This document shows positions 57,170-59,804 of a stretch of DNA of 64,000 nucleotides, piece after piece. The stretch's first letter is position 1. The number at the start of each line of letters is the position of its first letter. A model generated the notes under the pieces. It made no database searches. It was not told where the DNA came from and saw only the letters and a list, made by a program, of their open reading frames with translations. Source of the stretch: Erysipelotrichaceae bacterium NK3D112 (GTDB lineage: Bacteria > Bacillota_I > Bacilli_A > Erysipelotrichales > Erysipelotrichaceae); NCBI GenBank assembly GCA_000701725.1, contig JNJQ01000014.1, positions 1 through 64,000 of the forward strand. The letters are read 5' to 3'. A program made the translations under genes and the position numbers.

Positions 57170-57174
57170 AAAGC

Positions 57175-58140
57175 TCATTTTTCGAAAGACTGATACAGTT
57201 TTTCGCACCAGCCGATATAGCGGGCGGTATTGGTCACCGGAGTGATCGGCGAGAAGGAGAACTGGCTGCGGATGCATTCGTTGTAGTGTGCAAGCTCATA
57301 CCGGAATTCATATTCACACTCCGCCTTGACCGTTTCAATCAGCTGATCATCTTTGTAAATATATGCGGCTTTTGCTTTCCAGTAATCGGGGATCTCGATC
57401 CTTGCCTGATCCAGATGGATCGTGAGTCCGTTATGGAACAGCACTTTCTGCGATACGCACAGTGTCGCAAGGATGCCGCCTTCGAGAGTTGCCATGACCG
57501 CGCACTGATCCTCCTACTCATCCGGATCGCTGTATGAGGCACATCCCTGAGCGGAAAGAACCTTTCCTCCCAGAAACTCCGCCATATGGAAGAAGTAGGC
57601 CTCATTGGCTATGAGAACTCCGCCGCCGTATTCCTTTTTTCTGTTCCAGCCCTGTGTATACGGACCGTCTGTATAGGATTGTCTGAATTCCATGAAGCGG
57701 ATGTTTCCGTACGTCTTATCCTCGATGAGTTTTCTGATTCTCGCATAGACCGGCAGGAAAGGCGTCTTGACCGCCTCGGTGATAAAGAGATGTTTTTCAG
57801 CGGCCAGGGATGCGAGCTCCTGCGCCTCCCGTTCATGCAGAACAAACGGCTTTTCGACGATGACATGCTTGCCCGCCAGCAGGGCTTTTTTCGCATACGG
57901 ATAATGCATGGAATTGATTAACGGAATATAAACCGCATCGATTCCGGGATGCTGAATGACCTTTTCGTAATCATCATAATACTCCGGAATTTCAAGCAGC
58001 TGCGCCATGGCGGCCGCCTTTTCGGATGATCTGGATGCGATCGCAATGACCGTGCCGGAGCCGGTCAGATTCAGTCCCCGCACAAAGCGCGGGACAATGG
58101 ATGAAGTGGAAAGAATTCCGTATCTGACTGTCTTTTTCAT
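57175..58140 (-). pseudogene. Gfo/Idh/MocA oxidoreductase interrupted by an in-frame TAG
   Basis: A single frame of 321 codons broken only by TAG at 57514-57516. The first 208 residues hold the Rossmann domain (RYGILSTSSIVPRFVRGL), the EKP motif (GKHVIVEKPFVLHE) and the start of the C-terminal domain up to ASYSDPDE. After the stop the frame goes on without loss: EDQCAVMATLEGGILATL, to the end YQSFEK. Relatives oxidise sugars or inositols with NAD(P). GGTCAGAATC lies before the ATG, a weak ribosome-binding site. It is the second gene here with this kind of lesion. Confidence 0.8.
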
Positions 58141-58348: not shown

Positions 58349-58376
58349 GTGGCAATGAAGATATTGTTCATATAAT
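58349..58376 (+). promoter_or_regulatory. Candidate promoter of the HPr-lactate dehydrogenase gene
   Basis: TATAAT (58371-58376) with GTGGCA 16 bp upstream (58349-58354), 26 bases before the ATG. An alternative is TATGAT at 58337-58342. The gap 58141-58402 is A+T-rich and otherwise empty, apart from near-palindromic CATGCATGATG and AACATGCATAT stretches. Confidence 0.45.
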
Positions 58377-58402: not shown

Positions 58403-59701
58403 ATGAAACAGATTACGTATGAAATCACCAACCCGCTTGGAATGCATGCACGTCCGGCTGCTTTTGTTGCACAGGCATGTGTAGCTCTTCCTTCTCAGAT
58501 CACCATCAAATGCAACGGCAAGGTTGCCAACGGTGATAACGTTCTTCAGATCCTCGCACTGAATGCCCAGCAGGGCAACGTCCTCTATATTACCGCTGAA
58601 GGCGGCGATGAGGATGCGGCACTTGAGGCAGTCAGAAAAGAACTCGATCAGAGAATGAAAAAGTACGAGGAAGTTCCGGTTCTCAAGATCGCTTTCTTCG
58701 GTGCGAAAGACTATGACAGAATCTTCTTCAGTGAGCTGGCAAGAGATGTGGGCGAAGGTGCTTACAACTGCGATATCAAATACTTCAATGCCCGTCTGAC
58801 TCCTGAAACAGCCGGTCTGGCCAAGGGATTCGACGCTGTATGTATTTTCGTCAATGACGAGTGCCCCCGCATTGCGGTTGAGAAACTCCATGAATGCGGC
58901 GTCAAGCTGATCCTTCTGCGCTGCGCAGGCTTCAACAATGTTGACCTGCAGGCTGCCAAGGAATGCGGCATCCGTGTCGCACGTGTTCCGGCTTACTCAC
59001 CTTACGCAGTCGCTGAACATGCAATCACTCTGGCAATGACCTGCAACAGACGTATGCACAAGGCTGTCAACAAGGTCAAGGACAACAACTTCGCGCTGAG
59101 CGGACTGCTCGGTGTTGACCTGCACAACAAGGTTGCCGGTATCATGGGTACAGGCAAGATCGGTCAGTGCATGGCTTCCATCTGCAAGGGCTTTGGCATG
59201 ACAGTTCTGGGCTGGGACGCATTCCCGAACCAGAAGCTGGTTGACGATGGTCTGCTGACCTATGTCGACAAGGATGAGCTGCTTGAAAAGGCTGACCTGA
59301 TTTCACTGCACGCACCGCTGATCATGGGTCCTAAGGGCACATATCACCTGATCGATGCGGAAGCGATCTCCAAGATGAAGGATACAGCAATCCTGGTCAA
59401 TACAGCCCGCGGCGGACTGATTGATACAGAAGCTCTGATTGAAGCGCTGAAGAACGGCAAGTTCCACGCTGTCGGTCTTGATGTTTACGAAGGCGAAGAT
59501 GCCAACGTCTACACAGACCATTCCGATGACTTCCTGGTCAATGACATCACAGCCAGACTGACAATGTTCCCGAACGTTGTCCTGACATCGCACCAGGCAT
59601 TCTTCACCAGAGAAGCACTCCAGGCAATTGCGGCTGTCACTCTCGAAAACGCCCGCAACTTCAACCAGGGTGTTGATCTTGGCGCAGCTGAAGTCAAATA
59701 A
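58403..59701 (+). CDS. HPr domain fused to D-lactate dehydrogenase
   Basis: 432 residues. Residues 1-88 are a PTS HPr domain: NPLGMHARPAAFVAQ keeps the phosphorylatable His15, and CNGKVANGDNVLQILAL replaces the regulatory Ser46 by Asn46. Residues about 93-432 are a complete D-2-hydroxyacid dehydrogenase: RCAGFNNVD (173-181), the NAD motif GTGKIGQ (249-255), Arg336 in NTARGG, Glu365 in DVYEGE and His397 in SHQAFF. The expected reaction is pyruvate + NADH to D-lactate. The HPr part could couple it to the PEP/PTS phosphorylation state. AAGGAGAGG precedes the ATG, and codon use looks like that of a highly expressed gene. It is a monocistronic gene with its own terminator. Confidence 0.93.
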   Translation: MKQITYEITNPLGMHARPAAFVAQACVALPSQITIKCNGKVANGDNVLQILALNAQQGNVLYITAEGGDEDAALEAVRKELDQRMKKYEEVPVLKIAFFGAKDYDRIFFSELARDVGEGAYNCDIKYFNARLTPETAGLAKGFDAVCIFVNDECPRIAVEKLHECGVKLILLRCAGFNNVDLQAAKECGIRVARVPAYSPYAVAEHAITLAMTCNRRMHKAVNKVKDNNFALSGLLGVDLHNKVAGIMGTGKIGQCMASICKGFGMTVLGWDAFPNQKLVDDGLLTYVDKDELLEKADLISLHAPLIMGPKGTYHLIDAEAISKMKDTAILVNTARGGLIDTEALIEALKNGKFHAVGLDVYEGEDANVYTDHSDDFLVNDITARLTMFPNVVLTSHQAFFTREALQAIAAVTLENARNFNQGVDLGAAEVK

Positions 59702-59717
59702 TCAGATATTCATAAAG

Positions 59718-59745
59718 GACTTCCGGAAAAATCCGGAAGTCTTTT
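59718..59745 (+). terminator. Terminator of the HPr-lactate dehydrogenase gene
   Basis: A perfect 9-bp stem GACTTCCGG/CCGGAAGTC (59718-59726, 59733-59741) followed by TTTTGTTTT. Confidence 0.9.
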
Positions 59746-59804
59746 GTTTTATGCATGGCAAATGCATTAAAATGGATTTAACAATATTTGAGGAGAATAT
59801 AATC

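Follow-up and report, generated by a model that had tools for sequence, protein, structure and literature searches.

The window analysed here is a stretch of 64,000 nucleotides from the genome of Erysipelotrichaceae bacterium NK3D112 (assembly GCA_000701725.1, contig JNJQ01000014.1, positions 1 to 64,000 of the forward strand), a draft assembly of 95 contigs denoted G000 below. Its subject is a single gene that joins HPr, the phosphocarrier protein of the phosphoenolpyruvate (PEP):sugar phosphotransferase system (PTS), to a D-lactate dehydrogenase (D-LDH). The gene runs from ATG to TAA with zero internal stops or frameshifts. A preliminary interpretation made from the nucleotide letters, hereafter the sequence-only reading, had assigned residues 1-88 to HPr and placed the dehydrogenase straight after; a complete HPr followed by a complete LDH is indeed encoded, but HPr ends at about amino acid (aa) 84 and aa 85-93 form a linker. 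The parts of the gene and the evidence for each are the following:

58403..59701, plus strand: HPr-D-LDH fusion gene, 432 aa plus stop (open reading frame, translation, Pfam, homologues)
58403..58654, plus strand: HPr domain, aa 1-84, with the Pfam PTS-HPr match at aa 3-79 (Pfam, AlphaFold2 model, solved chains)
58439..58456, plus strand: HPr active-site loop G13-M-H15-A-R17-P18 (alignment of 55 proteins)
58538..58540, plus strand: codon 46 (AAC, Asn), the position of the regulatory Ser46 in canonical HPr (translation, alignment)
58655..58681, plus strand: linker, aa 85-93, nearly constant in length and variable in sequence (relatives, alignment)
58682..59698, plus strand: LdhA-type D-LDH, aa 94-432, with Arg336/Glu365/His397 and the NAD motif G249-T-G251-K-I-G254...D272 (Pfam, structures, alignment)

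The PTS-HPr match (E 1.4e-20) clears the cut-offs of both Pfam PF00381 (73.6 vs 23 bits) and NCBIfam TIGR01003 (69.5 vs 47.9 bits), and the solved chains nearest to this domain by sequence comparison are ordinary HPrs, the best being 3le1 (E 1.4e-15). In the AlphaFold2 model (mean predicted local distance difference test, pLDDT, of 89, with 93-96 in the HPr blocks), the HPr strands and helices occupy aa 2-84, the last helix spanning 70-84, and the LDH starts at aa 94; when the whole model was compared with the PDB, the dehydrogenase part alone gave matches, and the HPr part was identified by sequence. The dehydrogenase, whose first residue aligns with Met1 of Escherichia coli LdhA, is covered at aa 122-423 by the Pfam domains 2-Hacid_dh and 2-Hacid_dh_C (E 2.3e-28 and 1.8e-48). 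Its nearest solved structures are the LdhA proteins of E. coli, Salmonella, P. aeruginosa and F. nucleatum (PDB 5z1z, 4cuk, 5z20 and 5z21 among the LdhA-type enzymes compared), which have the same catalytic Arg/Glu/His and NAD fold and are 45-48% identical over the whole LDH part; structural alignment of the model to LdhA structures with VIA-align gave Z of about 35 and a root mean square deviation of 2.8-3.9 over 316-329 residues. The catalytic residues and NAD motif named in the sequence-only reading are all present, together with GTGKIG and Asp272, and across 55 distinct fused proteins Arg336, His397 and the NAD-specific Asp272 occur in 55/55 and Glu365 in 54/55. The NCBIfam D-LDH equivalog and exception models score below their cut-offs (best vanH_gen, 212.9 vs 540; PRK12480, 191 vs 579), and the enzyme is therefore classed as LdhA-like on the basis of homology and its active site rather than as a named NCBIfam equivalog. 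Alignment with E. coli LdhA, in which the substrate residues match, predicts an LdhA-type enzyme that converts pyruvate to D-lactate with NADH.

The domain search across genomes that the sequence-only reading had proposed shows that the fusion recurs within the order. It is present in 74 genomes among 295 sampled from the order, spread over 13 genera (there were 75 matches, of which G001 is an unfused relative; four of the copies are contig-edge fragments or lie on split contigs), and full-length copies come from many species of the window genome's genus and order. In a draw from the whole phylum, 11 of 392 genomes carry it, all of this order; outside the order, it is known from Eubacterium pyruvativorans and from Clostridia metagenome-assembled genomes (MAGs). 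A scan of contigs named as carriers Solobacterium sp., Kandleria vitulina DSM 20405, Eggerthia catenaformis DSM 20559 and E. pyruvativorans i6, along with MAGs labelled Lachnospiraceae, Oscillospiraceae and Clostridia. In a tree of 84 LDH parts, all 59 fused sequences form a single clade (support 100/100), and the unfused relatives, at about 48-58% identity, fall outside it. Loss of HPr was looked for among clade members and none was seen: G629:C77 and G602:C205, both partial copies, run out at contig edges. Of the other incomplete copies, G603:C81 begins at contig base 2 and that of G017 is split over two contigs. The single fused clade, together with the contig-edge position of the partial copies checked, points to one fusion event with no loss so far.

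Because the window comes from a draft assembly, the gene might be an assembly artefact or a decaying fusion. This is next to inconceivable: the open reading frame is intact and the same junction recurs, beyond chance, in 70 full-length copies within the order, from many independent assemblies that include cultured isolates (K. vitulina, E. catenaformis, E. pyruvativorans), with purifying selection on the protein. An artefact or frameshift is ruled out by these homologues; decay, which the sequence-only reading had held out as its alternative, is contradicted by a dN/dS of about 0.10 in the HPr part and by the lack of any clade member shown to be without HPr.

The pattern of conservation indicates what is being maintained. 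Although the HPr domains of the 55 proteins share a mean identity of only 54% (minimum 34%), G13, H15, A16 and R17 are invariant (55/55) and P18 is kept in 53/55, so that the active-site histidine recognized in the sequence-only reading is present throughout. Strictly invariant positions number 8 of 82 (M1, G13, H15, A16, R17, A42, L53 and G67), and the probability that His15, Ala16 and Arg17 would all be among these by chance is about 6e-4. The exposed hydrophobic residues of helix 2, which bind partners in canonical HPr, are also retained (V47 in 52/55, L48 in 54/55, L51 in 52/55). The median dN/dS values for nine close relatives, approximate given dS near 0.8-1.0, are 0.10 for HPr, 0.30 for the linker and 0.05 for LDH; both halves, the HPr half included, are thus under purifying selection as judged from these comparisons. 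Pairwise identities in one half correlate with those in the other (0.76), and the spacing from His15 to LDH is 79 in 40 of the 50 proteins in which the LDH start could be matched and 78-81 in the rest. The invariant active site, the helix-2 patch, the correlated identities and the near-fixed spacing together argue that phosphate exchange at His15 persists in the HPr half and that the two halves function as a unit. The persistence of the HPr domain in the clade and its nearly constant distance from the LDH would also fit a purely structural role, in which HPr helps the LDH to fold, remain stable or oligomerise and phosphorylation plays no part. However, His15 and Arg17 are dispensable for the HPr fold (Crh lacks His15) and should then drift freely, yet both are invariant, and the unfused LDH relatives, at about 50-58% identity, manage without HPr; we regard this explanation as quite improbable and as weaker than the other two functional alternatives discussed below. 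The two departures from Pro18, to Leu or Val after the HAR motif, are in the fused proteins L064 6001-7302 and L067 3651-4946, which retain His15 and Arg17.

Residue 46 is Asn in 47 of the distinct fused proteins, that of the window included, Asp in 7 and Ser in 1. The regulatory Ser46 of Firmicutes HPr, the substrate of HPr kinase, is hence replaced in the window fusion, and the lone Ser46 protein (L057 679-1986, from a MAG labelled Selenomonadaceae) is nested within the Asn46 clade, a placement that makes its serine look like a reversion. By the identity of this residue, 54 of 55 proteins are outside the Ser-phosphorylation circuit and the HPr kinase-regulated subset of HPrs; membership among phosphocarriers does not depend on Ser46. 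The sequence-only reading concluded that Asn46 leaves only the PEP-dependent mark. This stands insofar as residue 46 is non-phosphorylatable in 54/55, but it does not cover Asp46 (7/55), a possible permanent mimic of Ser-P. To treat Asn46 as a regulatory adaptation is, moreover, an over-reading: position 46 begins helix 2 (helix 47-51 in the AlphaFold2 model), where Asn, Asp and Ser are all good N-caps, so that losing the kinase site may have been neutral and adaptation need not be invoked. Several genomes of the order also encode a further stand-alone HPr paralogue with His15 and Lys46 (YDLKKLL or YDVKKLL; L114 in G039, L120 in G041, L122 in G005), which is probably another HPr that escapes HPr kinase.

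The expected partners are encoded in the carrier genomes. Enzyme I was found in 26/26 fused genomes searched, intact and with the catalytic GGRTSHSAIMAR motif in G000, and HPr kinase in 25/26, including the window genome. A separate canonical HPr, which the sequence-only reading advised looking for, exists in G000 (His15 and Ser46; G000:C11:12786-13025), and nearly all fused genomes have a further stand-alone HPr. These data bear on the possibility that the fusion is a moonlighting phosphocarrier, that is, an extra HPr that feeds EIIA proteins and is immune to HPr kinase, with fusion ensuring that transport capacity and LDH are expressed in step. Every phosphotransfer residue is retained, as such a role would require, and Asn46 would keep the fusion working while canonical HPr is Ser-phosphorylated; in G058, moreover, the fusion is the only HPr found. 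Against this, another HPr is at hand in nearly all fused genomes, the sister genomes of G058 hold a stand-alone HPr on a contig that is possibly just missing from G058, and it is left unexplained why the HPr domain is never seen apart from the LDH. We therefore consider a phosphocarrier role rather unlikely. The G058 genome is 96% complete in 320 contigs, and its fusion may be a true sole HPr or reflect an assembly gap. The genome of E. pyruvativorans (G062, L065) has the fusion together with enzyme I; no HPr kinase was found there at E <= 0.001. This species is regarded as non-saccharolytic, which would make it an odd setting for an LDH read by the PTS.

The switching of lactate formation by the PEP/pyruvate balance through His15, which the sequence-only reading had put forward, is partly supported. 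We propose, with a probability of roughly 0.55, that enzyme I phosphorylates His15 of the HPr domain, that HPr kinase does not act on this domain and that it regulates the LDH in cis; the phosphorylation, its effect on the LDH and the direction of that effect are what we infer. Enzyme I equilibrates HPr with PEP and pyruvate, and pyruvate is the substrate of LDH. Under this proposal, the fusion would be a pyruvate-reducing, NADH-dependent LdhA-type D-LDH that carries its own HPr as a regulatory module. Enzyme I would phosphorylate His15 with phosphate from PEP, the reaction being in equilibrium with pyruvate, and the domain could hand the phosphate back to enzyme I or on to EIIA proteins, so that its state would track sugar uptake and the PEP/pyruvate ratio, being dephosphorylated during rapid PTS uptake and phosphorylated when sugar is scarce. 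The two forms would contact the LDH differently, the unphosphorylated one most likely favouring activity: at low PEP/pyruvate the LDH would be active, and at high PEP/pyruvate it would be restrained, such that lactate is made at high glycolytic flux and PEP and pyruvate are spared at low flux. With Asn or Asp at residue 46, HPr kinase could not mark the fusion and CcpA should stay unengaged, and the sensor would keep reading enzyme I even while ordinary HPr is mostly Ser-phosphorylated. There are precedents in E. coli, where only unphosphorylated HPr binds MtlR and glucose leaves nearly all HPr dephosphorylated (PMC5320558), and where several metabolic enzymes are reportedly regulated allosterically by HPr (cited in PMC11793828).

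Several observations weigh against cis regulation. The invariant His15 suggests phosphotransfer use rather than action on the LDH; the AlphaFold2 model is a monomer that lacks inter-domain confidence and is uninformative on contacts between HPr and the LDH active site; residues specific to the LDH of the fused clade amount to 11 sites only, with no clear docking footprint or pattern; and none of the 36 named loci or the window has PTS gene neighbours or a conserved operon. In favour of the proposal, enzymes of the Ldh_1 family score over the cut-off in 7/25 fused vs 18/22 unfused genomes of two families (Fisher p 4e-4; 0.036 and 0.003 by family), statistics that ignore kinship and a family, PF00056, that includes malate dehydrogenase (MDH) too. 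As fused genomes usually have no such enzyme, the fusion is probably the main fermentative LDH; in the window's genome, no Ldh_1-family (L-LDH/MDH) enzyme was found over the cut-off.

The lack of a clade-specific docking footprint on the LDH is also what would be expected if HPr merely tethers enzyme I, or EII complexes, to the LDH, such that released pyruvate is reduced where it forms, which would draw the PTS forward and recycle NADH with no allostery of the LDH. The conserved partner-binding surface and His15 agree with such a scheme, as does the established biochemistry of the PTS, in which pyruvate is the product of the enzyme I reaction as well as the LDH substrate. However, tethering alone has no need for invariant His15 and Arg17 unless turnover matters, the binding of HPr to enzyme I is transient and pyruvate diffuses fast; we consider tethering unlikely. 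Classical Firmicutes L-LDH is subject to small-molecule allostery in the form of activation by fructose-1,6-bisphosphate. A tentative extension of the cis-regulation proposal, somewhat less probable than the proposal itself, is that an HPr domain reading only PEP/pyruvate via His15 replaced such allostery as the clade-wide pyruvate-to-lactate switch across a large set of bacteria from rumen and gut.

Comparison with known systems places the fusion apart from each of them. The LdhA-type D-LDHs compared above have no N-terminal HPr, and the fused proteins form a clade of their own. With canonical Firmicutes HPr (PtsH), the fusion has in common the family, the His15/Arg17 active site and the helix-2 hydrophobic patch; it differs in having Asn or Asp for Ser46 and a covalent metabolic enzyme partner and, compared with the canonical HPrs considered here, in the conservation of Cys26 and Ala42. 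Crh, the HPr-like regulator of Bacillus, lacks His15 and retains Ser46. It resembles the fusion in having the HPr fold and in departing from the usual pair of phosphorylation sites, but the fusion shows the opposite change, His15 being retained and Ser46 replaced, and is less similar in sequence to Crh than to HPr; the combination that defines Crh is thus not found in the fusion. Described HPr fusions join HPr to other PTS phosphotransfer domains (PMC2405797). In the multiphosphoryl transfer proteins (FPr, FruB and DhaM-type), HPr is likewise part of a multidomain protein, but its partners there are PTS domains such as EI and IIA, whereas Pfam detects in the fusion HPr plus dehydrogenase domains only, that is, a non-PTS metabolic enzyme. 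In the regulation of MtlR and metabolic enzymes of E. coli, the binding of HPr controls the partner, and control of MtlR depends on the state of His15 (PMC5320558; PMC11793828); this trans regulation is reversible binding, whereas the regulator of the fusion would be built in. LDH is not among the HPr targets named in the accessible text of the two papers.

The sequence-only reading knew of no described protein of this kind, and our search of the open-licence literature likewise found no description of HPr fused to a (D-)lactate or 2-hydroxyacid dehydrogenase, although one may exist elsewhere; automatic annotation presumably lists both domains together already. The new element is that control of metabolism by HPr, a known principle, would be hard-wired to a fermentation enzyme. 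If the proposal is true, phosphorylation through the PTS would directly gate a fermentation enzyme in cis and couple the PEP/pyruvate ratio to a branch point of pyruvate use; in many bacteria of rumen and gut, the share of pyruvate going to D-lactate would then be set directly by how sugar uptake stands. The carriers include rumen bacteria, and such inbuilt control of D-lactate would matter for rumen acidosis and methane yield; the D-LDH of the related Sharpea azabuensis, which may or may not be of the fused kind, is among the genes 12-fold up in low-methane sheep (PMC5069950). The fusion also makes testable whether control of metabolic enzymes by HPr, so far reported in trans, is strong enough to become fixed in covalent form.

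The flanks of the gene contain two further features:

58349..58376, plus strand: promoter-like GTGGCA-16-TATAAT (weak; such matches are about as many as in shuffled sequence)
59712..59747, plus strand: stem-loop in a U-rich context directly 3' of the fusion stop codon (-22.6 kcal/mol, z -6.6)

The stem-loop is absent from the listing of the consensus scan, and is likely a terminator. Given this strong structure after the stop codon and the lack of neighbours conserved across loci, a transcript of the fusion gene by itself is probable. Upstream, no conserved Rex or cre sites were found, with only scattered weak matches across loci and none in the window. A ribosome-binding-like AGGAGAGG immediately precedes the HPr ATG, and comparable purine-rich sites lie 5' of the HPr start in most homologues. 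The adjoining gene on the minus strand (57172-58140), recognized by eye only as a Gfo/Idh/MocA-type oxidoreductase, has an in-frame stop at codon 209 (57514-57516), past which its last third stays open in the same frame; it is either a nonsense-interrupted pseudogene or the product of a sequencing error.
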